Notes under the pieces: generated by a model | What the model was told of the DNA's origin: nothing | Database searches by the model: none | The model's input: only the letters and a program-made list of their open reading frames with translations | In this document: in pieces, positions 4,875 to 30,630 of the stretch | Position numbering within the stretch: position 1 is the stretch's first letter | How the letters are laid out: every line of letters begins with the position of its first letter | IMG/VR virus record: IMGVR_UViG_3300033149_002975 | Span: 38,812 to 102,811 of that record | Length of the DNA: 64,000 nucleotides | Origin: a virus | Direction: 5' to 3' (one strand) | Program-made: the position numbers and the translations under genes

Positions 4875-5356
4875 AATTTAATCCTTCTAGGTGCAATAGA
4901 AAAACATCTCACAATTTCCATATCCTGCATACCTTTTAATGAAAGGTTTACAATTTCGAATTCTGATGTTTTCTCAATACCTTCTGGAACTGTTTCTATA
5001 TCAATTTTAAAATATGATTGTTTACAAATAGATACGTCAACTTCCGATCCAGCATCCGATCCCTCTAAAGCTATGGCCTTTGTTCCAAACCAAGCAATAA
5101 TCGGTAAATTATCTTCTACGTATAATCCAAGTTTCTTTAAACGATAAGCGGTTGGTTGCCACTCAATAAAAACCAAAGCCTGATAACTTATATATTGAAT
5201 ATCAGATGGTGTTGCAAAAATATCAGATTTTTCAGCTTCATTGTACGATGCCACAGTTGGTATATATAGTATACAATCCTGCCCATAATTCGTCAGTGAA
5301 ACATTTACTTGGGTACGTAAGGCGTCAACTAATTCTTTTGGCAGCATTCTGGACAT
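4871..5356 (-). CDS. Putative head-tail connector/neck protein
   Basis: 161 residues, largely beta-strand by composition. Starts MSRMLPKELVDALRTQ and contains IQYISYQALVFIEWQPTAYR and LPIIAWFGTKAIALEG. No catalytic residues. Size and location (between packaged head proteins and the tail terminator-like gene) suit a connector or head-completion protein such as the small neck proteins of other myoviruses, but I do not recognise a specific family. It shares one base with the gene upstream and four with the gene downstream. Confidence 0.5.
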   Translation of the reverse strand: MSRMLPKELVDALRTQVNVSLTNYGQDCILYIPTVASYNEAEKSDIFATPSDIQYISYQALVFIEWQPTAYRLKKLGLYVEDNLPIIAWFGTKAIALEGSDAGSEVDVSICKQSYFKIDIETVPEGIEKTSEFEIVNLSLKGMQDMEIVRCFSIAPRRIKL

Positions 5357-6171
5357 TATTTTTCATTCTCTTCATATTCAACATTAAACGCTGAATCTTC
5401 GATATCTACTTCACCGGTTGGTTCTGATTCAATCCTCTTAGCTGCATCATTCAATTTGGATACCAAATTTTTTATGGCCTCAGCTTCAGTTTTACCATAT
5501 GCGAACGCCGTATATTTAGCAACTTTTCCAGGAACTTTTTCTGCTAATTCGTTAACTTTTGATTCAAATTGTCTTCCCCTCTTAAATCGCCTGTAAATTC
5601 TTTTTACGTATTCTTCATCAAAAAAATTTCTCAACATGTTTTGTGCTTCTTCATACGATATTGTATCCGTGTCTCCTAATCTATCTTCTCTTTCTTCAGG
5701 GGGTAAAGAATTCCAACCATTCATAAACCATTCAACAAAAGGCTCTTCGTAAGCAACATCCCCTCTAGTATCATCCCACCCGGATTCATTTAATTTTTCG
5801 TTCATCGTATCGTTAACATATTTGGTTAATTGGTTAACAATATCCTCTACCGAATCACCCTCCCAATAATCTTTATCTTCAGTTGACAGATCACCGGCAT
5901 TCCAAATTGCATCCAATTGCTCGATAGTTAATGGTTTATTGGATATAAACATAACTTTTGAATCAACTTCATCTTGATCATAATCATAAATAACTGCGTC
6001 ACCACCAACTTGTTGCGTGATTTTTACTATTTCTCTACCGGAAAAACTGTCCTTCCAGTCACAGGAAATTTGTGCTACCCTTATTTTATCCCCGGATTCA
6101 TTTAATTTTTTATCCGTAGGTTCTTCCAACTTATCCTGTACAAATTTTAACATTCTTTCAAAAGCATTCAT
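5356..6171 (-). CDS. Predicted capsid-packaged internal protein with protease-site motifs
   Basis: 271 residues. N-terminus MNAFERMLKFVQDKLEEP is an amphipathic leader shared with the protein at 3332-3676. It is followed by KKLNES near residue 25, a second KLNES near 128 and FESKVNEL near 205. Each fits the [LIV]-x-E plus small residue pattern of T4-type prohead protease sites, and ESKVNE recurs in other proteins of this arm. Between these motifs are two compact acidic segments of unknown fold (residues 30-120 and 130-200) and a C-terminal segment with AYGKTEAEAIKNLVSKL. Best guess is an internal head protein that is cut into pieces on maturation. No enzymatic motif recognised. Confidence 0.65.
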   Translation of the reverse strand: MNAFERMLKFVQDKLEEPTDKKLNESGDKIRVAQISCDWKDSFSGREIVKITQQVGGDAVIYDYDQDEVDSKVMFISNKPLTIEQLDAIWNAGDLSTEDKDYWEGDSVEDIVNQLTKYVNDTMNEKLNESGWDDTRGDVAYEEPFVEWFMNGWNSLPPEEREDRLGDTDTISYEEAQNMLRNFFDEEYVKRIYRRFKRGRQFESKVNELAEKVPGKVAKYTAFAYGKTEAEAIKNLVSKLNDAAKRIESEPTGEVDIEDSAFNVEYEENEK

Positions 6172-7118
6172 TATTTTATACCTCCTACAATTTTTTTGGT
6201 TTTTTCAACATCTTTCGGGCTTAATTCCCCATCTTCTAATAGATCTTTTAACTCTTTTATAATACGTAAATATTGATAACGAACAATAAATTTAAATGTT
6301 GCGTTTTTATTCTTCCAAATTTTCTTTAAATTTTCATCCCCCATAGCTTGTTCTTTTGATTGTGGTTGTGAAGCCGACCGGCGGGTTTTTATTAAATCTG
6401 ACCTTTTTTTATACAACATTTCTATATCATTTTCTATCTCTTTCAATTTTCCTTCCAATTTGGTAAGAAACGATTTTTTTAAATCTTTGGGCATTTTAGC
6501 TATTGCTTGTTTTATCGTTTCATAATCTATGATGTCACGTTTCAACTCCCCCATTTGCAAATCAACACCCTTTACTTCTTTTCTAATTTCATCAAAAATT
6601 TCTGAATAATCTTCATATGGGTCATAATCCTCCGGAACTATCTTTGGTCCTTTTAACCAATTGTCAGACATTATATTATAACAAGCATCGGCCAAATATT
6701 CCTGGTTTATATTTGATTGTATATAAACTTCAATTGGATATTTTCCAAAATAACCATTGATTTTGTCTCGATTATCAGAAAACCAGTCAAGTACAGCTTT
6801 TGAAAATTGTTCATCCTCATAGTATTTGGAATCCGTTGGTATCACTATATGAACATCAATATCTGAATCCTCACTGTATTGATTGGTACATATTGATCCT
6901 GTAATGTGAATCATTTTTTCTGAATCTTCACCGGTAGCCGCCATATCAATCAAATCAACATCTTTGTATTTTCCCAAAACATTTAAAATTTTACGCCTTA
7001 CCAAAGGCTTAAGTGTATATTTACCATTTTTAAAATCCCAAATGGATTTATTTAGAGTTTCACCCCTTGGAAAATCAATTGAAGATTCGATGATTCTTTT
7101 ATATAATTGTCCAAACAT
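6171..7118 (-). CDS. Pol-beta-type nucleotidyltransferase with a capsid-type leader
   Basis: 315 residues from the ATG at 7118. I prefer this start over the longer frame beginning at 7235, because 7118 lies 7 bases after the upstream stop, has an AGGAAAG ribosome site and gives a leader (MFGQLYKRIIESSID) like its neighbours, with IIE-S as a possible cleavage point. Near residues 70-90 it reads HITGSICTNQYSEDSDIDVH, the GS...DxD signature of the DNA polymerase beta-like nucleotidyltransferase fold. A third acidic residue could lie in the following EVYIQS segment. The rest is a long charged helical region (about residues 170-290). Substrate is unknown; members transfer NMPs to RNA, proteins or antibiotics. 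A packaged NTase would be delivered with the DNA, like the T4 Alt enzyme in concept. Confidence 0.7.
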   Translation of the reverse strand: MFGQLYKRIIESSIDFPRGETLNKSIWDFKNGKYTLKPLVRRKILNVLGKYKDVDLIDMAATGEDSEKMIHITGSICTNQYSEDSDIDVHIVIPTDSKYYEDEQFSKAVLDWFSDNRDKINGYFGKYPIEVYIQSNINQEYLADACYNIMSDNWLKGPKIVPEDYDPYEDYSEIFDEIRKEVKGVDLQMGELKRDIIDYETIKQAIAKMPKDLKKSFLTKLEGKLKEIENDIEMLYKKRSDLIKTRRSASQPQSKEQAMGDENLKKIWKNKNATFKFIVRYQYLRIIKELKDLLEDGELSPKDVEKTKKIVGGIK

Positions 7119-7125
7119 TATTTTT

Positions 7126-9408
7126 CTATTCTTTCCTATCTCCAACTGTCCGCCAAAATAGGTTTTCATCAAATCTTGGGTTGTCCTCTTTAAACATCCT
7201 GACCAAAGCTGAAGCAAAAGCTTTAACATCGTCATTCAATGGTACCAGCTTTTTTAATTCTTTGGCTATCTCTTTATAATGCTTTCTTGAAAAATGGGAT
7301 TCATTAACTTTTGATTCTTTCACAATTACTGCAAATTTTTGGGAATCTTCAGAATCCGGTATAACTACCCCGTTTTTCTCTCTCGCAATTCTGTCAGCTT
7401 CTTCTCTATCAACTATCCCTTTCGCGATAACTGTTCTTGTTTCCTTTTCTTCCTCATTAACTTTGGATTCACCAACTTTTATTGTTCCTTCTCTATTTGT
7501 TTCGTCTACCCTTGCATGCTCATCCAAATAATTTTCCAAAACAATTAACTTGTCACGATCAGATGTTGCATTCCCCGTTTCATATATTGCTTGTAGTGCT
7601 TCTTCAAAAACACATTGTGGCTCTTTAGTCCATACGGGGTCCGAATCAAAATGCACGGTAACTTTGTAATAACTTTCTTTTGGTGAAACATTCCTTGGCA
7701 ATCTGGCTTCATTAACCCCCGACATTTCAGACCCCAAATATTTTACACCATTTTCCTCAGCTAACTCTTCTCCTGTCTGATCTGCAAAATCTTTCAATTC
7801 TTCTATCGACAGTGCGTTTTCTGTTCCAGGTTCAGCTATTTGTTGACTATCAAGTCTATGATTTCCAGCGATATAAATTTCTCTATCGGATTTCGTGTCC
7901 ACTATTCTATATCCATATTTGTCTACTACCCCATAAAGATCACCCATTTTCGCGTCTTCATTGGTTTTTCGTTCCGGGAGAATATAAGTTCCATCCAAAT
8001 CTTTTATTTTTCTAGAACTAATGACACGTTTTTCCGGACTCTTCACTCTTGCCTTATTCATTGCGTCAACACGCGAATTGGCATCCAACTCCACAACTGA
8101 ACCGTCAAAAAATATAACTCTATATGTGCCGGGGTCAACGTGTACCCCAACTTCGTTCAATTCTCCGGTTATTTTCTCAACTCTTTCACTGCCACATTCT
8201 GTACATTTAGATTCATTAGCTCTAAAAGTTTTGCAACATTCATTACAAAGATAAAGGCTTTTCCTTGTTAATGATTCACTGGTTCTAAGACGACGGCCGG
8301 CAGTTCTTCTAGGACGGCCGGCAGTTCTTCTAGGACGGCTGGCAGTTCTTGCCCCACGTTCTGTATAACCACACGAATTACAAACCCACGAACCACGAAC
8401 TGGCGTCATTTTTTTATTGCATTTTGGGCACTTTTTTCCCGCCATTATTCTTTTGCCAACACCAAACTTTTGTCTCTGATATGATCCTCTACGAGGACCA
8501 GTTCCACTTCGTTCACCACTTTTAGTAAAAGATTCACCAACCTTTTTCATGCTACGGGTACCGGTTTCACTGTGAATCTTTTTACCTTTTGTATCTACTT
8601 TTTCTTCCGCCTGGGGGTTTTCCACCATCCCCACATCTTCCGCCTTTAACCCCTTTCCCTCTCCGGGTTTTTGGGTCTGGGGAACATTGGGTTTTGTTTT
8701 ATCCTTAACTTTTGCTTTTTTTGATGCCGGTGCAGCAGGTGTTGATTTGGCCTTTGAACCATCAGTAGCCACTACTCCTTCAGCAACCGTTGATTCACTA
8801 GTATCCCAAACAATATTATAAGCTGTTCCGGTTCCATCGTCATTTCGTTTGATATCTAATTCGCTAACTAGGAACCCATAGCTATCGGACAAATAATCAG
8901 CAACGGCCGTATCATTTCCCGCCTCTTGATCATCCATTATTTCTTTTGGAACATTATCGACCTTTTTTGGTAAATTATTGGCCTCACTTGTCACAGTTTT
9001 ACTACGTTTTCCTCTTAACCACCTTCGTTCGGGACCCCACAGGTGGGCACCAGGTAAAGCTTCTCTGATCTTTTTCTTTTCAGTAACTTCGGTATTGTCA
9101 AACAGTTCTCTAATTTTATTATTAATCTCTTTACTGTATGGCAATTCATTTATATCTTCCGGAACATAAATATTGGTAGTTTCTTTACCGTTGTTAAATT
9201 TTATTTCTTCTTTTATGCTGCCAGTAGCTGTTTCTACATAAACGTCAACATCTGAATCAACATCTTTGTATGCCCCAACGTATTGCCATATTCTATTGGC
9301 TTCTCTGATCTTTTTCTTTTCAGCTTCCCTTATTGCCCTATCGTTTTCAGCATAAGCTTTTTTCAACGATTCAAAGAGATCAAACATTCCTTGGTTCTGC
9401 ATTCTCAT
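7126..9408 (-). CDS. Large multi-module internal head protein with zinc ribbons
   Basis: 760 residues. The N-terminus (MFDLFESLKKAYAEN) leads into DRAIREAEKKKIREA, and TEKKKIREALPGA recurs about 80 residues later: three IRE-A sites of prohead-protease type. Further candidate sites are GVNEARL, ESKVNEEE and ESKVNESHF. Modules between them include a zinc ribbon (CPKCN near residue 327, then CNSCGY), an Arg-rich tandem repeat RPRRTAG, a second ribbon (CNECCKTF...CTECGS) and several small beta domains of unknown fold. Low-complexity Lys/Pro/Ala stretches separate some modules. The layout looks like a polyprotein of small domains. The ATG at 9408 has a GGAG ribosome site eight bases upstream; an internal ATG at 9387 is an alternative. 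Confidence 0.75.
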   Translation of the reverse strand: MRMQNQGMFDLFESLKKAYAENDRAIREAEKKKIREANRIWQYVGAYKDVDSDVDVYVETATGSIKEEIKFNNGKETTNIYVPEDINELPYSKEINNKIRELFDNTEVTEKKKIREALPGAHLWGPERRWLRGKRSKTVTSEANNLPKKVDNVPKEIMDDQEAGNDTAVADYLSDSYGFLVSELDIKRNDDGTGTAYNIVWDTSESTVAEGVVATDGSKAKSTPAAPASKKAKVKDKTKPNVPQTQKPGEGKGLKAEDVGMVENPQAEEKVDTKGKKIHSETGTRSMKKVGESFTKSGERSGTGPRRGSYQRQKFGVGKRIMAGKKCPKCNKKMTPVRGSWVCNSCGYTERGARTASRPRRTAGRPRRTAGRRLRTSESLTRKSLYLCNECCKTFRANESKCTECGSERVEKITGELNEVGVHVDPGTYRVIFFDGSVVELDANSRVDAMNKARVKSPEKRVISSRKIKDLDGTYILPERKTNEDAKMGDLYGVVDKYGYRIVDTKSDREIYIAGNHRLDSQQIAEPGTENALSIEELKDFADQTGEELAEENGVKYLGSEMSGVNEARLPRNVSPKESYYKVTVHFDSDPVWTKEPQCVFEEALQAIYETGNATSDRDKLIVLENYLDEHARVDETNREGTIKVGESKVNEEEKETRTVIAKGIVDREEADRIAREKNGVVIPDSEDSQKFAVIVKESKVNESHFSRKHYKEIAKELKKLVPLNDDVKAFASALVRMFKEDNPRFDENLFWRTVGDRKE
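8292..8354. repeat. Three 21-bp tandem repeats encoding Arg-rich RPRRTAG units
   Basis: Unit GACGGCCGGCAGTTCTTCTA plus G is repeated twice exactly at 8292-8312 and 8313-8333, with a third diverged copy at 8334-8354. On the minus strand they encode seven-residue RPRRTAG units between the two zinc ribbons of the 760-residue protein. Local GC is much higher than the surroundings. Confidence 0.9.
9059..9323. repeat. 25-bp direct repeat pair (9059-9083 and 9299-9323)
   Basis: GCTTCTCTGATCTTTTTCTT and the next five bases occur exactly at both positions, 240 bp apart and in frame. They encode the two [AT]EKKKIREA segments of the 760-residue protein, so a putative protease-site linker was duplicated recently. 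Confidence 0.9.
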
Positions 9409-9413
9409 ATTAT

Positions 9414-9857
9414 TTACTCCTTTATAGAATTTGACATATCTATAATTTTTGCTTTATTGCCATTAATATCCGTCCAATTACCAGCTTGTCCTGTATTTTC
9501 CCAATCAATTAGATCCTTAACTCTGTCATAAATTGTCTTTCCCCGCGTCCACATTGCAACCTCATATTTCCCATTTACATTTATCATCGGTTTATATTCA
9601 ACCGGTAAACGGGCAAAACGTGTATTTAACAATGCATGAACCACAGCCGGTGTATTTTTTTCAGACCCCAAAATCCAATTTAAAATATTGAGGGCCAATT
9701 TATCCTTGGGTAAGATACTAGCACCATTTTTTATCAAAATATCAAACAGTTTATCCACACCGGTACAAGGGGCATTCAATTTGTAATCACCCAGAATTTG
9801 CAACAAGTTTTTATAAACCGTTAAATTTTTAGCTTCAAACAATTTATTGATGTTCAT
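9414..9857 (-). CDS. Small predicted packaged protein (leader with LFE-A site)
   Basis: 147 residues. The N-terminus MNINKLFEAKNLT contains LFE-A, the same tetrapeptide found at the major capsid protein's predicted cleavage point (KLFEATT). Cleavage would remove only eight residues, as in T4 internal proteins. The mature part is mostly helical at first (VYKNLLQILGDYKL, LALNILNWILGS), then shows a strand-rich end with YEVAMWTRGKTIYDRVKDLIDW. No catalytic motif recognised. It sits between two other leader-bearing genes, with 2-5 bp gaps. Confidence 0.65.
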   Translation of the reverse strand: MNINKLFEAKNLTVYKNLLQILGDYKLNAPCTGVDKLFDILIKNGASILPKDKLALNILNWILGSEKNTPAVVHALLNTRFARLPVEYKPMINVNGKYEVAMWTRGKTIYDRVKDLIDWENTGQAGNWTDINGNKAKIIDMSNSIKE

Positions 9858-9859: not shown

Positions 9860-11275
9860 TTATTTTTCCTTTTTAATAACTAAATCATCTATTACATTTT
9901 TAATTCTTTGAAAAGTCCCCCGTTTAAACAAACCACCAACGGGCCAAATCGTACTGTACACAATTTTGATTCCCGATGTTATATCTTCCTCAATTGCATC
10001 GAGTAACTCTTTGTCGGCCACATAAATTGTCTGACTTGGGTTGTACATAAAATCTATAAGATATTCAAAACCTAAATGGTATCCTTCGTATAAAGAATTC
10101 ATTCTAGTACCAAATATGTAATCAAAATCCCTAAAAACATCAAAAGTATTCAATTCCGACTTATTGGATAATGCAGCAATTAGCATTTCCAAATTTCCGC
10201 GGTCTTCACCGTATTCACGTAATAGTCGTCCATAGATTCGTTGTATATCACGTTTCATTTTCTCATTAGAAACCGCAATTGATTCCCCGGAAGAAGTTGT
10301 ATATTGCACAACACCAAATACTGAATACCAATTCCACGCCATCTCTTGAAGTTTTATGAATTCCTTATTATGAAATAACGAATATAATTCAGTTTTTAAT
10401 TTTGAACGAAGTTTCTTCATATCCGCTTCATTGGCCTCGAATAAACGACGTTCCTCCAATGATTCCTTCATATTCCCGAGCTTCAACAATTTTCCGTTTA
10501 TCTTGTTGCCAAATATCTTCAAAAAACCATCCCAGTGTTTTTTGGGAACTAAAAACTTGACTTTATTTTTAATTATAAACTGTCGTGGGTCCAAATCATC
10601 TAAAATTTCCAAATCCCAATCAGGTTTTTCTTCAGCTAAAGTTGTAAGCATTGCTTTAACAGCTCCTAGTTGCGTCGGCAAATAAGAAATGTTGGACATA
10701 GTGGTGGATTCATTAATCTTTACTTCATTGGCGGTTATAAGTTCCATTTCCCGCTTACTTGCACCCAACAACCATTCCAATTGTTCTTTCGGATGAAGAC
10801 TTGGAATTGATATAGCCTTCTTAAACCATATAATTCTTCTGAACCCATACCTATCATATAGATTGCATATTGTATTAATTTGTTTGTCAGTTAATTTTTT
10901 CTTATTTTCTATATTAATTTCTTTATTACTAACTGAAACCACAACAGCCCCTGAATCAAGCATACGATATTTATCGTAAATATCACTATCTGTATATTCC
11001 AGGGCCAACTCCCCCAGCCGTCCTTCTCTGTATTTACGTTCCCCTTTTTTATAACCAAAATCTTTGTGTGCAAACGGTACGTGAATTAATGACCCATCAT
11101 TTAACAACCAAAATTTAACGTAATTACCTTCGCGAGGCCACGTGCTATATTTCTTATAATCAGCTTCTTTCGCAACGCCCCATTTCTTTTTTACCAATGA
11201 TTGGATATTGGGCAATCTCGACTCGTCAATCATTACTCCATCAAAGACTTTTGTTGCTAAATTGTATAAAGACAT
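9860..11275 (-). CDS. Predicted packaged head protein with internal cleavage motifs
   Basis: 471 residues. The leader MSLYNLATKVFDGVMIDESR includes MIDE-S. Further candidate sites are VKINESTTM near residue 190 and ERRLFEANEAD near 278, the latter again an LFE-A. These divide the protein into three blocks: an N-terminal domain of about 180 residues (WGVAKEADYKKYSTWPREGN, then IIWFKKAISIPSLHPKEQLEWLLGA), a small 80-residue domain (PDWDLEILDDLDPRQFIIK) and a helical 190-residue C-terminal domain (LRSKLKTELYSLFHNKEF). No enzymatic signature recognised. Confidence 0.65.
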   Translation of the reverse strand: MSLYNLATKVFDGVMIDESRLPNIQSLVKKKWGVAKEADYKKYSTWPREGNYVKFWLLNDGSLIHVPFAHKDFGYKKGERKYREGRLGELALEYTDSDIYDKYRMLDSGAVVVSVSNKEINIENKKKLTDKQINTICNLYDRYGFRRIIWFKKAISIPSLHPKEQLEWLLGASKREMELITANEVKINESTTMSNISYLPTQLGAVKAMLTTLAEEKPDWDLEILDDLDPRQFIIKNKVKFLVPKKHWDGFLKIFGNKINGKLLKLGNMKESLEERRLFEANEADMKKLRSKLKTELYSLFHNKEFIKLQEMAWNWYSVFGVVQYTTSSGESIAVSNEKMKRDIQRIYGRLLREYGEDRGNLEMLIAALSNKSELNTFDVFRDFDYIFGTRMNSLYEGYHLGFEYLIDFMYNPSQTIYVADKELLDAIEEDITSGIKIVYSTIWPVGGLFKRGTFQRIKNVIDDLVIKKEK

Positions 11276-11295: not shown

Positions 11296-13461
11296 TTAGT
11301 ACGGACTTTCTTCCGGTAATCTACCAAGCTTTGTAAGAATCTGCCGCACCTCCTCAAGCCATTTATCTAATTGCAACCCACGTCTAGACTCAGGATCATC
11401 TATATCCATCACCAGATGTCCAAGTGCCGGAAAATCTCTGTGCCACTGATTAACAGCATTATCTAAAGCAACCAACGCCTCACCCGGGTCTTTTCTAATT
11501 ATTGCCGATTGAATTTCTTGTAATCTTTTTCTATACGCTTTATAAATTTCCTCATCTTCAATTTTATCCTGTTCGTATTTATCATACCACTCCAAATATC
11601 CTTTATAATAGCCCTTCATCATATATAAAGCTTCAAACACGTTTTCTGGTGATGGGTCGATACCCCTTTCTATGTCATGATAAACTTTATACAAAGCTTT
11701 GACCCCAGAATAATCAACGGATTCTTTTAACCGATTTTTCCAATATTCATTTTCCGCTTTAATACCATTTTCTGAAGTAAATTTTGATCCACCTTCCTCA
11801 AACCACCATTTAGTGTATTCATCAAAAAGATAAAAATCAGCGTAGTGACCCCAAAATTCTATATCGACCCATAATTTTAATTGTAATTCAGCCTCTAATT
11901 GTGCCTTTTCATTCCTTGATAATTTACCGTAAGCAAATTTATCAACTTTGAAATATTTTTCATAATCGGGTTCCCACCACCCCATCCAATCACCCGCCGG
12001 TACTGGTTTATTGGGTTTTCTATTTAATATATAAATCACCTTATTATTATCAAGAATTTTAACAGTATATTTATCATTCGATGCTTCGGCTATTGATTTT
12101 ATCGTTCCATTCGTGTAACCAGTTATTGTTCTTTTATCATTTTCATATTCATCATAAACGAATTTGGCAAATTTGTCTTCATTTATCGATTCTCTTAAAG
12201 CGTACCCACCACTAAATATACTGTACCCATTTTTATCCCTTGCATCAAACCATTTACTACTTTTTTTCTTTCTAAAAATAATAGCTGGTGAATTCTTATA
12301 CATAATTCCGGCAGGAACATGAACTTCAACCATTTCCCCGCCTTTATCAATAATTTTTACATTATCCAATTCCACAATATCCATTTTTGGGTGTGATCTA
12401 CTTCCGGACCATTCCGCCCATTTAACCTTAACATTTTCATATTCTTTTGGGTAACCAACAACCTTTTTTCTAGATAATTCTTTCATTTGTTTCAAATCTT
12501 CATCCGCTTGCATACGAGTATCTTCATCATAGTCTTGTGGGTTTATATAAACATTTATATCATAATAATCGGTCGGATTATACTTGCAACTTGTATGGTG
12601 CCACTCGGACGGGGAAAGAACTTGTTTTAATGCTTTAGTTGTTACACCCAATTTTTTTGCAGCAATGGAAGCAGGGAATTTTCCAATATGTTCCGCCTCA
12701 ACCGCCCTTTTACTTTTAGAATACCCAACATAACCTCTTTCATTAATTGATTCTTTGGTCTCTTCTTTCTCCGGCTCTTCCTTCTCCGGCTCTTCTTTTT
12801 TTATCTCTTTTCTCTTCCCTAATTCCTCGCCAGCCTTTTTGAATTCTTCGGATTCTTTCTTAGCTTCATCCTCGAATTCTTCAATATCTTTTCCATAAAA
12901 ATCATTCAACCATCGAGCAATCGTCGAATTGTAAAACGGCAAAGCCTTAAATAATGCGTCCAAATGCTTACACACAGCCCCATATTGATGTGGATTTCTA
13001 ATTCTTGGTGCCCTGGTTTCTTTATCCCCATATTTCGCATTATATTTATCTTTGCTTAATATATAATTGAAACCCCAATATTGCTGACAGGGACAATTAC
13101 ACGTGATTTTAACTTCCGCTTGATTACGAAATTCATTAGCCAACAACCTTAAATCAATTTTCGATTTATCACGTGTCCACAATCTTCGATCTTTTACCAG
13201 TTTTTCCAAAGTTGGTGTAATATTTGAAAATTTGATAACCGCGTCATACCATACAGACTTTTTAGTTCCAGAATGAATTTTAAAATGCCAGGATTCGGTT
13301 CCTAATCTATCCAACCTGACACCACCCATATGGCCAACCTTTTCCACACGCCCAGGGTGGGCTGGGAACAAAGAAGTGATGGTACGTTGCTTTCTTGTAA
13401 TATCAGCCACCGTTGCTTCATTTATTCTATCAATAGTTTTTGTTAATAATTTGTATAACAT
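11296..13461 (-). CDS. Large predicted packaged protein with SWIM-like zinc motif
   Basis: 721 residues. The leader MLYKLLTKTIDRINEATVAD contains INE-A. The first domain (to about residue 200) has VKITCNCPCQQYWGFNY, then HQYGAVCKHLDALF: a CxCx(n)CxH arrangement like SWIM zinc fingers, in a form I associate with large phages. A Lys/Glu linker (residues 205-245) ends in ESINERGYVG, then come a domain with KKLGVTTKALKQVLSPSEW and SGSRSHPKMDIVELDNVKI, a further ESINEDKF site, and a helical C-terminal half. Repeated -INE- sites again suggest a cleavable multi-domain protein. SWIM motifs usually bind DNA or protein. Confidence 0.7.
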   Translation of the reverse strand: MLYKLLTKTIDRINEATVADITRKQRTITSLFPAHPGRVEKVGHMGGVRLDRLGTESWHFKIHSGTKKSVWYDAVIKFSNITPTLEKLVKDRRLWTRDKSKIDLRLLANEFRNQAEVKITCNCPCQQYWGFNYILSKDKYNAKYGDKETRAPRIRNPHQYGAVCKHLDALFKALPFYNSTIARWLNDFYGKDIEEFEDEAKKESEEFKKAGEELGKRKEIKKEEPEKEEPEKEETKESINERGYVGYSKSKRAVEAEHIGKFPASIAAKKLGVTTKALKQVLSPSEWHHTSCKYNPTDYYDINVYINPQDYDEDTRMQADEDLKQMKELSRKKVVGYPKEYENVKVKWAEWSGSRSHPKMDIVELDNVKIIDKGGEMVEVHVPAGIMYKNSPAIIFRKKKSSKWFDARDKNGYSIFSGGYALRESINEDKFAKFVYDEYENDKRTITGYTNGTIKSIAEASNDKYTVKILDNNKVIYILNRKPNKPVPAGDWMGWWEPDYEKYFKVDKFAYGKLSRNEKAQLEAELQLKLWVDIEFWGHYADFYLFDEYTKWWFEEGGSKFTSENGIKAENEYWKNRLKESVDYSGVKALYKVYHDIERGIDPSPENVFEALYMMKGYYKGYLEWYDKYEQDKIEDEEIYKAYRKRLQEIQSAIIRKDPGEALVALDNAVNQWHRDFPALGHLVMDIDDPESRRGLQLDKWLEEVRQILTKLGRLPEESPY

Positions 13462-14244: not shown

Positions 14245-14948
14245 ATTTTGCGCGCGAATATGACCCATCTTGAATCTTCAGCCAATCTGTCTTCAAGTTC
14301 CTTGGCCCGTTCTTTTCCATCATTCACCATTGATTGCCCATCATTTGCTATATTAACAATTGATGATTTTCTCAATGTATTGCCTTCTATTTGCTGAAGT
14401 AGCGCTTTACTGTATCGTAACAGCCAATCGTATATCGGCTCAATTTTTACATCTTCAAATTCTGTGATTCTTTTTGTTCCTATGACGTATAACTTATCAG
14501 TTCCCGCCGGAACATTTATTGCATATAAATAACCGCCAACATTCATATCTTCAGATTTTTGCCATATAAATTGAAAATCAGTACCAACGTAAGCTCTATA
14601 CGATCTGAAAGCCTCTGAAAGCATTATCAAATCGCCGGTTACATTATCCAAAACCGTAATACCCATCAAAGTCCACAACGGATGATCATTCCAAATCCAC
14701 GTTGTGGTTTTTGATGGATAACAATCTGCTACTGCCTTAAATTGTGCATTCAATTGAACACGTTTGGTGCCGGGTGGAAAATCAACCATTGTTTCTATAC
14801 GATAAGCGGAATGTGTATTCCAATACCTAATGGCATTTTCTACTATTTGTTTTAACGTAGTATCTGGTGTTGCCAATTGCAGTGGTAGAAATTCTTGTTT
14901 CAACCATTTTATGTATTTATCATAATTTCGCTCACCTGATTCAGCCAT
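14241..14948 (-). CDS. Putative neck/head-completion structural protein
   Basis: 235 residues, directly after the major capsid gene. The N-terminal half is helical (YDKYIKWLKQEFLPLQL, LKQIVENAIRYWNTHSAYR); a central beta portion (TTTWIWNDHPLWTLMG, YLYAINVPAGTDKLYVIGTK) leads to a C-terminal helical hairpin (LLRYSKALLQQIEGNTLRKSS). Conserved phage proteins of this length next to the capsid gene are often neck or connector subunits. I cannot assign a T4 gene number with confidence. An AT-rich leader with hairpins separates it from the capsid gene. Confidence 0.45.
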   Translation of the reverse strand: MAESGERNYDKYIKWLKQEFLPLQLATPDTTLKQIVENAIRYWNTHSAYRIETMVDFPPGTKRVQLNAQFKAVADCYPSKTTTWIWNDHPLWTLMGITVLDNVTGDLIMLSEAFRSYRAYVGTDFQFIWQKSEDMNVGGYLYAINVPAGTDKLYVIGTKRITEFEDVKIEPIYDWLLRYSKALLQQIEGNTLRKSSIVNIANDGQSMVNDGKERAKELEDRLAEDSRWVIFARKI

Positions 14949-14962
14949 TTTTATTATTCCGT

Positions 14963-14994
14963 GGACTGCTGGCGTCCTTTATTGCCAGCAGTCC
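14963..14994. other. 11-bp stem hairpin upstream of the neck-like gene
   Basis: GGACTGCTGGC at 14963-14973 pairs perfectly with GCCAGCAGTCC at 14984-14994 around a 10-base loop. On the minus strand it lies 15 bases before the 14948 start and is followed by AATAATAAAA rather than a clear U-run. It could be a weak terminator, a 5' UTR structure or an RNA processing site. Confidence 0.55.
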
Positions 14995-15018
14995 GTATTA
15001 TATATATTATAATAACAA

Positions 15019-21900: not shown

Positions 21901-22263
21901 TATGCGAATTTTTAATGATCTATTATCGGGACTTATATCCAAAATTTCGGCGTCGGACCATTGTTTGCCGCCTTTAGTAACAGCTTGTGATCCACCCACC
22001 GGGACTTTGACTATTTCACCGATTTTATAGGTTAATTTTCTATATATGTCTGGATCCGGAATATTGGATTCACCCACCAATGAATTGCGAATATTCTCTA
22101 CAGTTGTTATTCTCGTCGATTTATTAACCGATCGCAGCTTTCTGCTACCGACAGCAATTCTTTCAAAAAGCGACATATTGGGGTCTTTAAATTTTTTGGA
22201 ACTCGTCAACGAACTGTCTTTTATCCCCCTGCGCCTTTTTGCCAAATCTTCAAATAAGCTCAT
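18967..22263 (-). CDS. Very large modular internal head protein (putative polyprotein)
   Basis: 1098 residues and strongly acidic. It begins MSLFEDLAKRRRG, with a second MSLFERIAVGSRKLR at residue 30, as if a leader had been duplicated. Motifs ESKVNEG, DESRVNED, ESKMNKP, ESNINEH, ESKINETM and ESMNEKG punctuate the chain roughly every 80-250 residues. Modules include a SH3-like segment early on, a Pro/Glu repeat tract (around residue 350), a zinc ribbon (CPMCGYKAKY...CPQCDDRGF), small alpha/beta domains and a basic C-terminal module (DHFPINTAKQARAALSYCKH) resembling small DNA- or protein-binding phage modules. The alternating module-linker plan and location next to protease and capsid suggest a packaged, processed protein. 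Confidence 0.75.
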   Translation of the reverse strand: MSLFEDLAKRRRGIKDSSLTSSKKFKDPNMSLFERIAVGSRKLRSVNKSTRITTVENIRNSLVGESNIPDPDIYRKLTYKIGEIVKVPVGGSQAVTKGGKQWSDAEILDISPDNRSLKIRIKDTGEERWINRFARKVKKLAKATESKVNEGIERKDVKVKKRDDGFYVSVDTPEFNLAQFYTTKDRNSKRFVKNVEEAIDRFIAFYDKFAESSSLIVDESRVNEDEIKGDVEEPNYEDIPKELKPKTEHKPKFRPEQELGKKADTDTEPEEAPIEKEYVGESEDNHYYMVTTDDGDLQLVDQEGNKVYSAKEKLLDVKDIRGFVASVIRDVDIDSVTRDVVMNYIMPEEEAPEPEEEPEEEEEPEEEEEPEEEENTGEKGSKVEPPPHPAEIEREKKESKIVEKAGLLADEYICPMCGYKAKYSELRRGGICPQCDDRGFKIKMMKDIVEKVALPNDEEIAKIVSDAIIKVKSDPTKKRENMALDTTRLVIDTLIKTYKLTFDDINELQSKIDLASKILKQISEGKNIRGKRDGTGPYKDSAQRSIYGDKGVRKMRGEKCPNDLLSEDAKNAIIADFKDWSGGLTPNNSSIDKINDYIRSSLFTDYNKPEIHAWLRSMSLKESKMNKPLIEMKVSDGTNEFDVYLEDDGTLDTVISINGREFRFDSDFASMWRNSEGELSEEGLRELALDALSYMEQEEYDDLVKQSAEENNDEESDEDEENPYILHGDELKRTEDQARRGEGQFKPRNESNINEHIDLIEDSGYKLIEEYNGYVILFNVNNDELSEWVEVAKEDADNYDYVIDIDNKFYVYSGMLKESKINETMKEIPNDYTLTRAIDDGFEGSVDANVEISLYNYGLIHKDLGNGNFLFIYGTQHGGEENPDEYTKFSITEFSEDDLKELIENGGRFNIKDVVKFSGAGSEEEWMKKPLPYRVSDLLMYYGSPDIFGSPGVEAPILKESMNEKGLKMNKLREAMVSKKTGRKLNPKAENRNRGKVVFPAEKSKDKKDHFPINTAKQARAALSYCKHYKSSPPWYSGSLKSLQDKVKRAVHAAYPSIKISEAVRIKKNDKKLEETRQPQDFIVPSRGVDLLRKLLKR

Positions 22264-24359: not shown

Positions 24360-24572
24360 TTATTCCTTTTTCTCGTTTAAATTTTGTTTTTTTAAAATTT
24401 TCTTTGATTCGTTTGTCCCATCGCCAATATCCGCTGCCGGTATTTCCTTATCTTTTGTCAAACTTAATATTTTGGCTACCGATTGTAGATTCTGTACACC
24501 GCCTTGCTTCAGCGCGATATCACACAACTGAACAATAACTTCACGTCCTTCTTTGTCAACTATTATTTCCAT
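24360..24572 (-). CDS. Small hypothetical protein
   Basis: 70 residues, overlapping the upstream gene by 17 bp and ending 9 bp before the fibre gene. N-terminal strand-helix (MEIIVDKEGREVIVQLCDIA), then a charged tail ending KKILKKQNLNEKKE. No family recognised; retained because its spacing and overlap fit the operon. Confidence 0.5.
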   Translation of the reverse strand: MEIIVDKEGREVIVQLCDIALKQGGVQNLQSVAKILSLTKDKEIPAADIGDGTNESKKILKKQNLNEKKE

Positions 24573-24993
24573 TATTCGCCCCCTTTAATATTGAATTGTA
24601 TATTTCTTCGTTTAAACGTTCCTGAATTGCAGGAATCAACATTCTGAATTCCAAATTACCTTGCTGGCATTCTATAATTACATGCGTCAAAAGACTCGAC
24701 AAACCCTTTGCCACCGTAAATCCGTCAATTTTTTCTTCCACCCCTTCGTGAATCTTTTTCCCACGGCATATTTGAAGAAGCGTTCTATAAATGTGCTTTT
24801 TATCCTTCAATTTTCCAATGATTTCCGCGGATAGATGATCCGGCGTTGGTAATTTTAAAATTTCTTGTTCACATAGTTCATATGAATGGTTAGTAAATAA
24901 TCTCATCGCCTTATCAACGATTTTTTGATACTTGGTCCCCGAAAGATAAATCTCGGCTTCCATTAATTTGGATAAAAGCTCTGCATTAATCAT
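24556..24993 (-). CDS. Hypothetical helical protein
   Basis: 145 residues, almost all helical by composition. It begins MINAELLSKLMEAEIYLSG, where KLMEA looks like a possible protease-type LxE-A site, so it may carry a leader too. Cysteines in LYELCEQEIL-like and LLQICRGKKIHEGV segments are not arranged as a zinc site. No function assigned. It sits between the predicted packaged 286-residue protein and the fibre cluster. Confidence 0.55.
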   Translation of the reverse strand: MINAELLSKLMEAEIYLSGTKYQKIVDKAMRLFTNHSYELCEQEILKLPTPDHLSAEIIGKLKDKKHIYRTLLQICRGKKIHEGVEEKIDGFTVAKGLSSLLTHVIIECQQGNLEFRMLIPAIQERLNEEIYNSILKGANNGNNS

Positions 24994-25007: not shown

Positions 25008-25868
25008 TCAGCGTTTTGTAAATCGGCGTTTCCGCAAATCAACGTGCCGCAAACTGGGTGGTGTTTCCAATGAATCATTATTTTCTTCATCAATTCTGGA
25101 TTCAACTGCGGGGGTTGGCTTCGTTAACTTCGCCAATGCTTCATCAGCCCACTTCTCACCTTCAAATTCAGCCAAAACTTTGGGACCAATATTTTCACCA
25201 CGTTTCAATCTCGCCTGTAATATCTCTCGTCGCCTTGCTTTTGCTGCGTCTGCTAATGGTTTTGGCTCCAATTCCGAAGCGTATCTTTTACCGTATTTTC
25301 TATCCCACGCTTGTTGTCTGATAAGTTGCTTATCCTGTTGAATTGCGGTAGCATGTGGGTTTATTAATGGACGAGGCGGTATTTCTGTAACTTTATCGGA
25401 TTCTGTGATATCCGTTTCTTCTGGTTCCACAGCACGTTGTAATATTTTGAGAAATTTTCTGCCCCATTCTCTGTCGTATTCTTTCATTTCTTCCGACAAT
25501 TCTTCATACGGTTTAAAGCATTCATCGTTCCAACGTTTAGCTCGTTCTTCACTTATTGCTTCGGTCTTTAAAATATCTTTAGCCCACGACATCCATTCTT
25601 CATGAACCAATGCCGACACTTTTTCCAATAAATCGCTCGGTTCGTCAGATTCCGCATCAACTTCTTTCAAGTATATATCGGAGACTACGGTTTTTTTGCC
25701 CTTGGTGGTAATTGCATCTATTACATAATCTTCAGCAGCCGCTTCTTCTTTTATACTTGGGTCGGTGGTTTCTATCAATATTTCCACCCGAAACGTTCTC
25801 TTAACGGCCGTGGCTTCCTGAAACCTTCTCAATCTATCGCCATCTATTACTTTATCAAAAATGCTCAT
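25008..25868 (-). CDS. Predicted packaged head protein with conserved leader
   Basis: 286 residues from ATG 25868; four more residues are possible from an upstream GTG. The leader MSIFDKVIDGDRLRRFQEA aligns almost residue for residue with the leader of the next gene upstream (MGIIDKIVDDGKIKRLAES), and each ends in a protease-type xxE-A/S site. Residues 70-145 hold LVHEEWMSWAKDILKTEAI and RWNDECFKPYEELSEEMKEY, a helical module known from many phages (W..W....RW......Y..LSE..K). ESRIDEEN near the C-terminus is another ESK-like site. The module's biochemical role is not known to me. Confidence 0.65.
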   Translation of the reverse strand: MSIFDKVIDGDRLRRFQEATAVKRTFRVEILIETTDPSIKEEAAAEDYVIDAITTKGKKTVVSDIYLKEVDAESDEPSDLLEKVSALVHEEWMSWAKDILKTEAISEERAKRWNDECFKPYEELSEEMKEYDREWGRKFLKILQRAVEPEETDITESDKVTEIPPRPLINPHATAIQQDKQLIRQQAWDRKYGKRYASELEPKPLADAAKARRREILQARLKRGENIGPKVLAEFEGEKWADEALAKLTKPTPAVESRIDEENNDSLETPPSLRHVDLRKRRFTKR

Positions 25869-25896: not shown

Positions 25897-27270
25897 TTAT
25901 TCTGTTTTGGTCGATTTATCCTCCGGTAATCTGGCACCGCGTAGATCGGCACCGCTCAACATTTCGTTTTTTGGCATCTTTGCACCAGACAAATCAGCAC
26001 CACGTAGATCGGCATCTTGTAAATCAGCCTTCTGTAAATCAGCACCAGGTAAGTCGGCGTTTCGTAAATCGGCGTTTCGCAAATCGGCGCCCCGTAGATC
26101 GGCGTCTTGTAAATTGGCATACGCCAAATCGACTTTTTGCAAATTGGCACCTTGCAAATTGGCACCATATAAATCCACATATGGTAGTCTAGCCCCCTGC
26201 AAATCAACATTCTGTAGATCGGCACTTCGTAGATTGGCACTGTGTAAATCGGCACCATGTAGATCGACACCCTGCAAATCAGCGCCGTGTAGATCTGCGC
26301 CGTGTAGATCTGCGTCTGGTTTTATTTTATATCCACGAACCTCAATTGGACGGGGTGGTATTCCCGTACCCCCTTCCTCATTAACTATTTCCTTCCGAAG
26401 AGATCTAAATATCTTACCAAATTCTTTCCATTTATTGCCTGGTATTTTTGATTCATTTCGATAAGTTGGTATCAAACTACTTAATTTATAATTCTTAATA
26501 AGTCCTAAACTGTTCAATTTATATCCACTAAATCCATGCCTTTTAAGTTCCGAAACCAATTTATCAATAACTTTATCCGCCGCATAATCCCCATCATCCA
26601 TAGAAAAATTGGAAGTAAATTCTATATCAAAAGTTTTTTGACCCAGATTGGGTGTTGCACACGTAACATTGGCTATATAATTATATGGTGCCCCATAAGC
26701 CTTGGCGGATTCTGTAACGGTCGGTTTATCCTTTGGCAATTTGGCGACCAGCAAATTGGCACCATCCATCAATCTGTCGTCTGGCATTTTAGCACCACGT
26801 AAATCAGCGTGATATAAATCAGCGTTTCGCAAATTGGCTCCTTCCAAATTAGCGCCCTGTAGGTTGGCTCCCTGTAGGTTGGCTCCCTGTAGGTTGGCGT
26901 ATTGCAATTTGGCTCCTTTCAAATCGACACCACGTAAATCAGCACCACGTAAATCGACACCACGTAAATCAGCACCACGTAAATTGGTATCCCGCAGGTT
27001 AGCGTTCCGTAAAGTGGCGCCATAAAATTTAACATCGTGTAAATCGGCGCCCGACAAATTGGTGTTTTGTAAATAGGCACCCTGTAAATTGGCGTCGTGT
27101 AGATCAATGCCCGACAAATCGGCGTCTGGGAAATAAACACTGTGTAAATCGGCACCGGGTTTTGCTTCGTATCCATTAATCTTAATGGGTGGTGCAGATT
27201 CCGTTAATGATTTTGATTCAGCTAACCTTTTTATTTTACCATCATCTACTATTTTATCAATAATGCCCAT
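25897..27270 (-). CDS. Pentapeptide-repeat protein with capsid-type leader and two repeat arrays
   Basis: 457 residues. A leader (see the 25008 gene for the match) ends in RLAES and SLTES. Two arrays of A(D/N)LxG pentapeptide repeats follow, each introduced by a near-identical phrase (INGYEAKPGADLHSV and VRGYKIKPDADLHGA). The first array covers about residues 40-165 and the second about 300-450. A unique region (residues 180-290, with ANVTCATPNLGQKTFDIEF) lies between. Pentapeptide proteins form right-handed quadrilateral beta-helices; some mimic DNA and inhibit gyrase or other DNA-binding enzymes. If packaged, it would enter the cell with the genome. Confidence 0.85.
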   Translation of the reverse strand: MGIIDKIVDDGKIKRLAESKSLTESAPPIKINGYEAKPGADLHSVYFPDADLSGIDLHDANLQGAYLQNTNLSGADLHDVKFYGATLRNANLRDTNLRGADLRGVDLRGADLRGVDLKGAKLQYANLQGANLQGANLQGANLEGANLRNADLYHADLRGAKMPDDRLMDGANLLVAKLPKDKPTVTESAKAYGAPYNYIANVTCATPNLGQKTFDIEFTSNFSMDDGDYAADKVIDKLVSELKRHGFSGYKLNSLGLIKNYKLSSLIPTYRNESKIPGNKWKEFGKIFRSLRKEIVNEEGGTGIPPRPIEVRGYKIKPDADLHGADLHGADLQGVDLHGADLHSANLRSADLQNVDLQGARLPYVDLYGANLQGANLQKVDLAYANLQDADLRGADLRNADLRNADLPGADLQKADLQDADLRGADLSGAKMPKNEMLSGADLRGARLPEDKSTKTE

Positions 27271-27280: not shown

Positions 27281-27982
27281 TCAATTCAAGGGTATCAACA
27301 CTTTTTGCATTTTATATTTACGTAATACTTTATTAATTTCAGTAGTTGGGACGCTCCACGACACGCCTCTGCCACCCAATACCACGATGCCGACCATTAG
27401 ATTTTTATAATACAAACCGCCACCAGAATCGCCTTGGTGTACTGAATAATTACAAAATATGTACGATGTATCAACCCCTAATACTTTATTGAATACCAAT
27501 CTGCGAAAATTGTTTTTCCAGACTTTCCCATATATGATATCGTTGTCCCATATTCCTAAAGAGTTTCCTATGTTGTATACGTGCATTCCCTTTTTCAAAT
27601 CATTTGAATCCCCAAATTTCACGGCCGGTAAACCTTTTGCCGGAATCTTAATAAGCCCGACATCCGATACCTGACTTTCATAATAAACGGAAGTTTTAAA
27701 ACTTCTTCCATCATTCAAAGTTACTTTTATATAATTGGCATCTTTAACACAATGTCCGGCGGTCAATATTAAACCGTTGGGGTCTATGATTACCCCACTG
27801 CCTATCCACTGTTGTGATATTTGATACCCAGAATATTCAACACCTTCTATTAATACATTGTACGTTATTTGTTCTTTTGCTACGTGTCTTTCAACACATA
27901 AAGTAGTCGTTATATAAGTAGCAAATATTGCGCCAACCATCATTGTAGCAACCAACGAATTTTTAATCAATTTACCAATCAT
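27281..27982 (-). CDS. Trypsin-like serine protease, membrane-anchored
   Basis: 233 residues. I take ATG 27982 as start: it overlaps the preceding stop (TGATG), although a TTG one codon earlier is possible. A hydrophobic segment at about residues 8-28 (signal or anchor) precedes a chymotrypsin-fold domain. LILTAGHCVKDA gives His77, SQVSDVGLIKI gives Asp107, and VHQGDSGGGLYY gives Ser186: a complete catalytic triad in the HtrA/trypsin order. No PDZ domain follows. Located in a block of membrane and lipoprotein genes. It could cleave host envelope or virion proteins; the target is unknown. Confidence 0.85.
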   Translation of the reverse strand: MIGKLIKNSLVATMMVGAIFATYITTTLCVERHVAKEQITYNVLIEGVEYSGYQISQQWIGSGVIIDPNGLILTAGHCVKDANYIKVTLNDGRSFKTSVYYESQVSDVGLIKIPAKGLPAVKFGDSNDLKKGMHVYNIGNSLGIWDNDIIYGKVWKNNFRRLVFNKVLGVDTSYIFCNYSVHQGDSGGGLYYKNLMVGIVVLGGRGVSWSVPTTEINKVLRKYKMQKVLIPLN

Positions 27983-28074
27983 CAACGATATCCCCAGTAT
28001 TTAACAATTTTATACAGTAAATAGCCTATACGTACTAAACAATAACTAATTATTATTTGGAGTAGAATTTTCAT
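27982..28074 (-). CDS. Possible 30-residue membrane peptide
   Basis: The frame opens with MKILLQIIISYCLVRIGYLL and is followed by YKIVKYWGYR, i.e. one transmembrane helix plus a basic tail. Its stop overlaps the start of the protease gene (TGATG), which suggests coupled translation. It overlaps the end of the lipoprotein gene by 29 bp and lacks a clear ribosome site, so it is tentative. Confidence 0.35.
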   Translation of the reverse strand: MKILLQIIISYCLVRIGYLLYKIVKYWGYR

Positions 28075-29631: not shown

Positions 29632-29654
29632 CCTGTACCATCATACTATTTCAA

Positions 29655-30026
29655 TTACGTATCTTGGTGTTTTTGATCAAACAACACAGTTCTGGGTTTA
29701 ATTGGTCCTTCAAAAACTTTTGATACCTCATTCTTGTTTTTACGCAATAAATACAAAATATGATTGGCTAAATGCCTGGCAACTTTTGCCTCCAATATTA
29801 CCATATCGGCCCACAACGACCCACCGTTCAATATTCTCCACGCGTATTTTATACGTTCCCACATGGATAATCCGTCCCCATCAAATTTTGGATTACACGC
29901 CCAAAACGATATATCAAAGAATGGTCCCCCTTTGCAGCCCTCAAGTTCCACGTCTTTGGAAATACTAACTGTCAACCCTTCACCGGCACAATCACACGGG
30001 AAAAATTTTGTAACTTTGTCAATCAT
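29655..30026 (-). CDS. Hypothetical protein, conserved phage type
   Basis: 123 residues from ATG 30026, chosen because GAAGGTG lies six bases before it and the frame upstream would overlap the next gene. It contains KFFPCDCAGEGL, GGPFFDISFWACNPK, SMWERIKYAWRILNGGSLWA and AKVARHLANHILYLL. The C.C...F..FW pattern is seen in small phage proteins of unknown function. No catalytic assignment. Confidence 0.6.
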   Translation of the reverse strand: MIDKVTKFFPCDCAGEGLTVSISKDVELEGCKGGPFFDISFWACNPKFDGDGLSMWERIKYAWRILNGGSLWADMVILEAKVARHLANHILYLLRKNKNEVSKVFEGPIKPRTVLFDQKHQDT

Positions 30027-30030
30027 GATT

Positions 30031-30630
30031 TCACCTTCCTTTTCTTGGTTTTGGTTCTTCAAAAACTTTTAACAGTTTATCTATCAATTCAACCTGTTCA
30101 TCGGAGAAATGCCAACGAACGTCTTTTTGTTTATTAAACCATTCTCTTGCAGTGTTTGTTCCAAGTTCTTCAGACATAGCTTGCCAATCCGCCACCATTT
30201 CTGCAATGTCCAAATCCGGCATTGCGGAAGCGTCAACTACGTGCTCCGATTTGTCGCGATCCTCCGCCGACAAATTAACCTGTGATTTATCCAACACGTG
30301 GAACTCAGGGTGGTGGGAATTCGTCATTATATGATGTAACGTCGCTTTTCTTTCCTCTTCCGTCTGGGATTTGTCGCCGTGGGCTTTTTTCCAAATTATT
30401 TCTATATACGGAGTTAATTCCGGTTCTTCAAATTTCGAGGCGTCGTGGACTTTTGCTCTCTGTATTAACTCTTTAAATTCAGGATATGCATCGACTATTT
30501 TTTCACACGCACGTTTCACCAATGCTATGTGCTTTTTCGTTCTATTGACAAAGAATTTATATTTTTCGTCCTTCAAATTCTTCCTGTCGTTGGCTTCAGT
30601 TAGTCTTTTTAGTAATCTATCAAACATCAT
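30031..30630 (-). CDS. DUF5662-like His/Asp protein with capsid-type leader
   Basis: 199 residues. The leader MMFDRLLKRLTEANDRK contains LTE-A, a textbook T4-type prohead-protease site at residue 12. The mature domain has HIALVKRACEK, then RAKVHDASKFEEPELTPYIE, ATLHHIMTNSHHPEFHV and PDLDIAEMVADWQAM: spaced His and Asp residues as in the DUF5662 family, an HD-like presumed metal-dependent fold. The enzymatic activity of the family is not established as far as I know. Lies two genes downstream of the portal. Confidence 0.7.
   Translation of the reverse strand: MMFDRLLKRLTEANDRKNLKDEKYKFFVNRTKKHIALVKRACEKIVDAYPEFKELIQRAKVHDASKFEEPELTPYIEIIWKKAHGDKSQTEEERKATLHHIMTNSHHPEFHVLDKSQVNLSAEDRDKSEHVVDASAMPDLDIAEMVADWQAMSEELGTNTAREWFNKQKDVRWHFSDEQVELIDKLLKVFEEPKPRKGR

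Follow-up and report, generated by a model that had tools for sequence, protein, structure and literature searches.

Putative head cargo tagged and divided by prohead-protease sites in an uncultured gp23/gp21-type myophage

Introduction

How does a T4-type phage known only from its genome fill its head, and can the packaged proteins be recognized from their sequences? The question is raised by a 64,000-nucleotide stretch of viral DNA (the window), which is the final 64 kb of the 102,811-base IMG/VR virus record IMGVR_UViG_3300033149_002975, a linear fragment. In the head region of this phage, many genes with unrelated bodies begin with short leaders that end in a site fitting the T4 gp21-type prohead protease, and the large proteins of the same region carry further such sites internally. 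Judged from these sequences, many small proteins seem to be loaded into the heads of this phage and of its uncultured relatives, either tagged with a protease site or strung together by such sites. In T4, gp21 cleaves after L/I-x-E, and foreign proteins can be brought into the head by leaders alone (PMC9026906).

The T4-type head and tail region lies on the minus strand (32586 to 504), in the order portal, several small genes, a gene for a protein of 1098 amino acids, gp21-type protease, gp23-type capsid protein, neck-like protein, more large genes, sheath, and tube; the names of portal, neck, sheath, and tube come from homology and position. The closest annotated relatives of the capsid protein share 20 to 30% identity with it. 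Related contigs were collected through portal and sheath searches, and more were added by a clade-level capsid alignment; the capsid protein used as a lone query matched no viral contigs, and its alignment with distant phages contained no stretch that could be used. Seven contigs with a head region formed the comparison set for site counts.

Protease-site leaders on unrelated proteins

The site motif was defined as hxE↓[SAG], where the arrow marks the predicted cut, and an N-terminal match as one with its Glu at residues 6 to 30. Such matches were present in 13 of the 25 minus-strand genes between 5356 and 30857, against 2.0 ± 1.3 for shuffled N termini, and in 6 of 103 genes elsewhere in the genome (Fisher test, 3.6e-7). 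Among homologues of the structural neighbours, 1 of 35 had one. Counted over whole proteins, the head region of the window contained 71 sites versus 31.6 expected by shuffling, and the rest of the genome 76 versus 73.7. The seven related contigs behaved similarly: N-terminal sites were found in 67 of 203 region proteins (18.4 ± 4.4 expected) and in 25 of 385 other genes (29.1 expected). As a yardstick, the same count in known T4 substrates gave 10 sites versus 3.0 expected for gp22, 3 versus 0.6 for gp67, and 5 versus 1.1 for gp21, while T4 gp17, gp18, gp19, and gp20 were at or near chance. In distant gp23 phages, N-terminal sites near the capsid gene are also in excess (149 of 540, 50 expected) and fall mostly on core-like genes; therefore, the presence of such a site in the vicinity of the capsid gene is not in itself a mark of injected cargo.

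The leader-tagged genes of the window are as follows, with supporting evidence in brackets; features read from the sequence itself carry none.

6097-6171, minus strand: leader MNAFERMLKFVQDKLEEPTDKKLNE↓S of gene 5356-6171
7086-7118, minus strand: leader MFGQLYKRIIE↓S of nucleotidyltransferase gene 6171-7118 (PF01909, 4e-5; site in 9/9 orthologues)
9370-9408, minus strand: leader MRMQNQGMFDLFE↓S of multi-module gene 7126-9408 (11 sites versus 3.5 expected in the gene)
9834-9857, minus strand: leader MNINKLFE↓A of gene 9414-9857 (11/13 orthologues have the site, in two cases inside a longer protein)
11222-11275, minus strand: leader MSLYNLATKVFDGVMIDE↓S of gene 9860-11275, encoding module X and a second module (low AlphaFold2 confidence exactly at residues 1-18)
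13417-13461, minus strand: leader MLYKLLTKTIDRINE↓A of gene 11296-13461 (15/15 orthologues have the site, in one case internally)
12964-13101, minus strand: SWIM-like CxC..CxH motif of gene 11296-13461
24958-24993, minus strand: leader MINAELLSKLME↓A of gene 24556-24993 (site in 6/8 orthologues)
25815-25868, minus strand: leader MSIFDKVIDGDRLRRFQE↓A of RyR-domain gene 25008-25868
27217-27270, minus strand: leader MGIIDKIVDDGKIKRLAE↓S of pentapeptide-repeat gene 25897-27270 (PF00805, 4e-83)
30595-30627, minus strand: leader MFDRLLKRLTE↓A of the DUF5662 gene (PF18907, 1e-27)

Since the bare hxE↓[SAG] motif is weak, any single site may be accidental. The position of the site, be it N-terminal or internal, is conserved among orthologues in the four families that most relatives share: hxE immediately precedes the homologous body in 15 of 15 SWIM-like proteins, 9 of 9 nucleotidyltransferases, 13 of 13 second domains of the 9860-11275 protein, and 11 of 13 relatives of the 9414-9857 protein, and the leader residues ahead of it vary widely. 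A trend, M-x-[FL]-[DNE]..L[KR].[IL].E, runs through the leaders, with much divergence in sequence.

The first-pass annotation of this DNA, made from the letters alone, had proposed capsid-targeting-like leaders on unrelated bodies. The counts, the conservation of sites among orthologues, and the intact gp21-type protease described below support this proposal well, and its suggestion to look for leaders on nonhomologous bodies in related genomes was borne out in all seven related contigs, as in the window. The nine N termini that it quoted were all located, with some corrections: gene 6171-7118 begins at 7118 and not at 7235, the DUF5662 gene begins at 30627, and in gene 7126-9408 another site, MRMQNQGMFDLFE↓S, precedes IRE↓A. 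It had overlooked gene 24556-24993 (MINAELLSKLME↓A) as well as the site of the protease (QKLDE↓S) and all internal linkers. The amphipathic helix that it placed before each site is seen only as a slight tendency (mean hydrophobic-moment z score of 0.53 ± 0.15 for 80 leaders versus −0.01 for other N termini).

Three pentapeptide-repeat proteins are encoded by this phage (25897-27270, 33861-34409, and 37343-38182), and the first alone combines a head-region location with a leader.

A matching protease and capsid protein

The genes for the protease and the capsid protein are adjacent.

16610-18949, minus strand: gp21-type prohead protease with a long C-terminal region containing a coiled coil and modules (PF03420, 8e-8; phrog_207, 5e-28)
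15057-16601, minus strand: gp23-type major capsid protein (PF07068, 7.5e-31; longest open reading frame, whose true start may be further in)
16365-16376, minus strand: KLFE↓ propeptide site of the capsid protein, E79 of the longest open reading frame (L77, F78, and E79 invariant among relatives)

The match of the protease to PF03420 (T4-type prohead protease, peptidase S77) is above the cut-off. Residues H79, S132, and D164 of its triad are invariant in the alignment with T4 gp21, and their H/S/D order is that given for SPN3US gp245 (PMC5694885). The protease has an N-terminal site of its own, QKLDE↓S, and its gene contains 12 hxE↓[SAG] sites versus 3.6 expected by shuffling. In the capsid protein, the LFE-A reported by the first-pass annotation is present as KLFE↓A; it corresponds in position to the propeptide site of T4 gp23, which reads FLTE↓A (residue 65).

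The capsid gene is interrupted in two relatives, L045 (G010; 15321-18453) and L053 (G015; 3844-5660), in which homology is split over separate open reading frames, a pattern as expected for introns or inteins.

Internal linkers divide large proteins into modules

The large proteins of the head region carry stereotyped internal linkers of the forms ES[KR][VI]NE↓, ESINE↓, and ESIQE↓, which share the hxE ending of the leaders. They divide these proteins, including a scaffold-like protein and the C-terminal region of the protease, into modules of ~50 to 200 amino acids.

18967-22263, minus strand: scaffold-like multi-module protein of 1098 amino acids with acidic stretches and internal sites (12 sites versus 5.7 expected; five strong linkers)
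21814-21831, minus strand: linker ESKVNE↓G in gene 18967-22263
21592-21609, minus strand: linker VDE↓SRVNE↓ in gene 18967-22263
19999-20016, minus strand: linker ESNINE↓ in gene 18967-22263
19795-19812, minus strand: linker LKE↓SKINE↓ in gene 18967-22263
19372-19386, minus strand: linker LKE↓SMNE↓ in gene 18967-22263
17951-17968, minus strand: linker MKE↓SKVNE↓T in the protease gene
17504-17521, minus strand: linker LEE↓SKINE↓D in the protease gene
12739-12753, minus strand: linker ESINE↓ in gene 11296-13461
12178-12192, minus strand: linker RE↓SINE↓ in gene 11296-13461
11722-11733, minus strand: site RLKE↓S ahead of the YHD module in gene 11296-13461 (YHD module is a free leader-tagged gene in G001)
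10709-10720, minus strand: site KINE↓STTMS between the two modules of gene 9860-11275 (13/13 homologues; N-terminal leader site in relatives)
7453-7470, minus strand: linker VGE↓SKVNE↓ in gene 7126-9408 (following module recurs in G015, L066, L069, and L072)
7300-7317, minus strand: linker VKE↓SKVNE↓S in gene 7126-9408
5548-5565, minus strand: linker ESKVNE↓ in gene 5356-6171 (preceding 75–amino acid module also site-bounded in the L075 protease gene)

Strong linkers numbered 47 in the head-region proteins of the seven contigs, where the reversed pattern occurred once; the other proteins contained 2 and 0, respectively. At the DNA level, the window holds seven copies of a degenerate linker versus 0.01 expected. 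The linker codons differ among copies and among relatives, so it is the amino acids that are kept, and a DNA recombination seam was rejected as the origin of the linkers for the same reason. When the set was widened, 44 strong linkers were found in the clade and 2 in distant gp23 phages; by these counts, linker-bounded modules are what distinguishes the clade from the latter.

The 1098–amino acid protein had no match among annotated phages. Its modules are common to relatives in other contexts, and its C-terminal module is DUF6582-like (1.1e-4, under the curated cut-off). For the two-module protein of gene 9860-11275, AlphaFold2 confidence was low at residues 1-18, the leader, and at residues 172-196 around the linker residue E189.

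A second, longer linker, KVPDDxDPEDKKIxKLTE↓, recurs in the relatives L041, L040, L046, and L051 and looks like a leader retained inside a fused protein.

Modules move between genes together with their sites

The same modules are free leader-tagged genes in some phages and lie between two sites inside longer proteins in others. The domain that follows KINE↓STTMS in gene 9860-11275 is preceded in G015 and L066 by a leader at the N terminus, RLLE↓ATTMS, and the domain after RLKE↓S in gene 11296-13461 is a free gene in G001, with the leader MNELLGKLLHVNE↓. Conversely, DUF5662 forms a free protein in the window but lies within a longer protein in G009, where it follows RITE↓S. The 75–amino acid module with sites on both sides is part of gene 5356-6171 in the window and of the protease gene in L075, and module X is present as three tandem copies with sites between them in both G001 and G007. 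Overall, 101 of 320 ends of shared blocks lie near sites, against 66 ± 7 for random positions, and both the order and the content of modules vary among relatives. Because modules move with the site kept, a domain could ride behind its own leader or sit in a protein that would enter the prohead anyway.

Module X (~150 amino acids; residues 19-170 of the 9860-11275 protein) is widely shuffled, with copies in G001, G007, and G016. It yielded a confident structural model (predicted local distance difference test score of 81.8), but comparison of the fold with the PDB gave no match better than an E value of 0.26, and no convincing sequence match was found either.

A model of packaged cargo

The sites, their enrichment and conservation, the shuffling of modules, and the conserved triad of the protease are the support that the sequences give to the following account. 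The region probably encodes proteins that a gp23/gp21-type myophage carries in its head. Free cargo proteins would attach to the prohead core through a short N-terminal leader ending in hxE↓S or hxE↓A, which the gp21-like protease would then remove, and modules located inside the scaffold or the protease would enter the prohead along with their carrier. Because the further sites lie between folded modules, their cleavage in trans during maturation would free an assortment of small mature proteins within the head, and the released modules would be injected with the DNA. Packaging, cleavage, injection, and function are what we infer. We consider this account as a whole probable: leader-tagged cargo and site-bounded modules, cut in trans by the gp21-like protease, released in the head, and injected. 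The chances are about even for a more specific version, namely, that a clade of T4-superfamily phages uses cargo polyproteins in which counter-defence and host-takeover modules stand between sites in cargo proteins, scaffold, and protease, are cut apart in trans within the prohead, and are injected as a mixed and readily reshuffled set; any one module could be a free leader-tagged gene at one time and part of a longer protein at another.

Several points weigh against this account. The clade is known from genomes of uncultured phages alone, and start codons were assigned by a simple rule. The hxE↓S/A motif is weak, some sites fall within domains, and others are missing in orthologues, as in 2 of 13 for gene 9414-9857 and 2 of 8 for gene 24556-24993; the nucleotidyltransferase of G009 has LND where hxE is expected. 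After several strong linkers, the P1′ position would be taken by E, D, R, or H. Strong linkers taken alone lie near block ends in 52% of cases versus 37 ± 7% for random positions, a difference of only about 2 standard deviations. The low AlphaFold2 confidence at the linker of the 9860-11275 protein also reflects a thin alignment there. Last, as with T4 gp22, cleavage of the scaffold-like protein and of the protease tail may serve no purpose beyond emptying the head.

The last point can be extended to all multi-site proteins, which would then be scaffold or core shredded to peptides that leave the head, as with T4 gp22, gp67, and gp68; only the single-leader proteins, if any, would be cargo. 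The site density of gp22 is the same, the product of gene 18967-22263 is acidic and its gene occupies the position of the T4 core genes, just upstream of those for protease and capsid protein, the C-terminal region of the protease contains coiled-coil–like sequence, and distant gp23 phages, too, carry sites on core-like genes. However, the sites separate folded domains (Tad3, transglycosylase, GNAT, DUF5662, SWIM-like, and module X) that a mere scaffold does not need, the same domains are free leader-tagged genes elsewhere, and the order and content of modules vary among relatives, unlike in a conserved scaffold. Clearing of the core is thus an unlikely explanation of the whole set, but it may hold in part, especially for gene 18967-22263 and the protease tail.

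A still less likely alternative, which we doubt strongly, is that the multi-domain proteins stay uncut and act whole, like polyvalent proteins, the ESKVNE-type stretches being flexible linkers or recombination seams and their match to the protease motif secondary. The linkers are slightly longer and more stereotyped than the protease motif requires, and the virion RNA polymerase of phage N4, of the polyvalent kind, is packaged unprocessed (PMC5512222). Yet the internal linkers share the h-x-E ending with the leaders, relatives have an N-terminal leader site at the same boundary, the variation of codons is contrary to DNA recombination seams, and the motif is concentrated in the head region beside a matching protease. 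Chance, i.e., the picking of favourable cases of a short and common motif that 6 of 103 other genes also match N-terminally, is extremely improbable given the shuffle and neighbour controls, the structural-gene control (1 of 35), the reversed-pattern control, and the conservation among orthologues.

Candidate counter-defence modules

The modules of the window include a nucleotidyltransferase (4e-5), a RyR domain (3.7e-6), pentapeptide repeats, DUF5662 (1e-27), a SWIM-like Cys/His motif, and zinc-ribbon–like segments; rubrerythrin-like, GNAT, and DUF5661 domains are found elsewhere in relatives. One protein of a relative combines a transglycosylase domain, module X, Tad3, and a GNAT domain. Its Tad3 domain (2.8e-34, residues 457-563) begins right after E456 of ESINE↓; by Pfam naming, Tad3 is a type I Thoeris inhibitor. 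Together with the RyR domain of the window, it suggests that at least some modules resemble counter-defence proteins.

25440-25634, minus strand: RyR domain with H89, W92, and D132, candidate anti-Thoeris cargo (PF02026, 3.7e-6; PDB 6uhi, 3.8e-8)

The PF02026 match scores 27.5 bits versus a cut-off of 27.4, and the PDB match is to a RyR chimera. Of the ligand residues H75, W78, H100, and D117 of RyDEP-type anti-Thoeris RyR proteins, the window protein has H89 and W92 (HxxW) and D132 (EYDR) at matching spacing, with no His where H100 should align. The L066 homologue, of 81 amino acids, consists of little beyond a seven-residue leader and the RyR domain. We found no open-access paper linking Tad3, Thoeris, and capsid.

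An ADP-ribosyltransferase (ART)–like reading of domains in G001 and G007 was made by eye only and was not retained; the domains have no Pfam hit and match one PHROG of unknown function. In G016 (L043, 1009-3909), the SWIM-like domain contains an intein-like insertion (CLTGDTKIYLLDGRILTIEE...VHNC).

Comparison with known systems

The T4 proteins IPI, IPII, IPIII, and Alt likewise have a short N-terminal leader ending in hxE before A or S (MKTYQEFIAE↓A in IPII and IPIII), variable bodies, and a gp21-type protease, and counter-defence roles are described for Ip1-3 (PMC12373910). T4 cargo is processed N-terminally, Alt also C-terminally (PMC9026906). Here, in contrast, about ten nonshell genes are leader-tagged, many of the leaders stand on multidomain proteins, sites are repeated internally between modules, and the leaders have diverged in sequence. 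The "unusually rich" cargo of the first-pass annotation is thus apt as to number, which is high for T4-like phages; as a principle, leader-tagged variable cargo is already known in T4 (PMC9026906, PMC12373910). The T4 core proteins gp22, gp67, and gp68 are alike in having several hxE sites per protein, in genomic neighbourhood, and in protease type; their fragments are mostly removed, whereas the sites described here delimit domains that are folded and can be exchanged.

Polyvalent proteins carry shuffled effector domains (ART, GNAT, nucleotidyltransferase, and lysozyme), are thought to be delivered with the DNA, and have been likened to polyproteins [Iyer et al. 2017 (PMC5512222)]. Many effector domains per polypeptide, shuffled among elements, are seen here too. 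Release of polyvalent domains has been proposed to occur via embedded peptidase domains, which are frequent but not universal (PMC5512222). The sites found here, in contrast, are suited to cleavage in trans by the prohead protease that the phage itself encodes, and modules also exist as free leader-tagged proteins. Pfam scans of the cargo proteins tested revealed no metallopeptidase domain, and the S77 domain was found only in the protease gene. In SPN3US and phiKZ, too, a gp21-like protease processes many head proteins, including ejection proteins, by removing propeptides, which may contain several sites (PMC9026906, PMC10052503). The phiKZ motif is, however, S/A-x-E, and the cuts identified in SPN3US, besides self-cleavage of the protease, yield N-terminal propeptides and not modules between sites.

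Leader-tagged variable head proteins of T4-like phages and multidomain injected polyvalent proteins are therefore known already. The putative modular, site-bounded polyprotein is a new variation on these, as no account of exchangeable cargo modules flanked by prohead-protease sites came up in open-access papers. If the account is true, hxE↓ leaders and linkers near a gp21-type protease provide a sequence rule for finding packaged proteins in uncultured phage genomes, and polyprotein logic serves the delivery of many proteins at infection. Module X, DUF5661, DUF5662, and the SWIM-like domain, all unannotated, would then be testable candidates for injected counter-defence, a role supported by the Tad3 and RyR domains that accompany them among the cargo.

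Other features of the phage and its relatives

Among the small head-region genes, 27281-27985 (minus strand) encodes a trypsin-like serine protease with an N-terminal hydrophobic segment; related proteins are found in G016 and G010. The portal genes of L044 and L059 and the terminase gene of L059 gave two-piece matches with large insertions. By eye, a run of glycosyltransferase-like genes was noted on the minus strand at record positions 14828-21748 (L002/L003), between early and tail genes. Also by eye, the product of 61660-62220 (plus strand of the window) looks secreted, and its C terminus (VPEPTTICILGLGCLLF) resembles a PEP-CTERM sorting signal, which may hint at a planctomycete-like or similar host.

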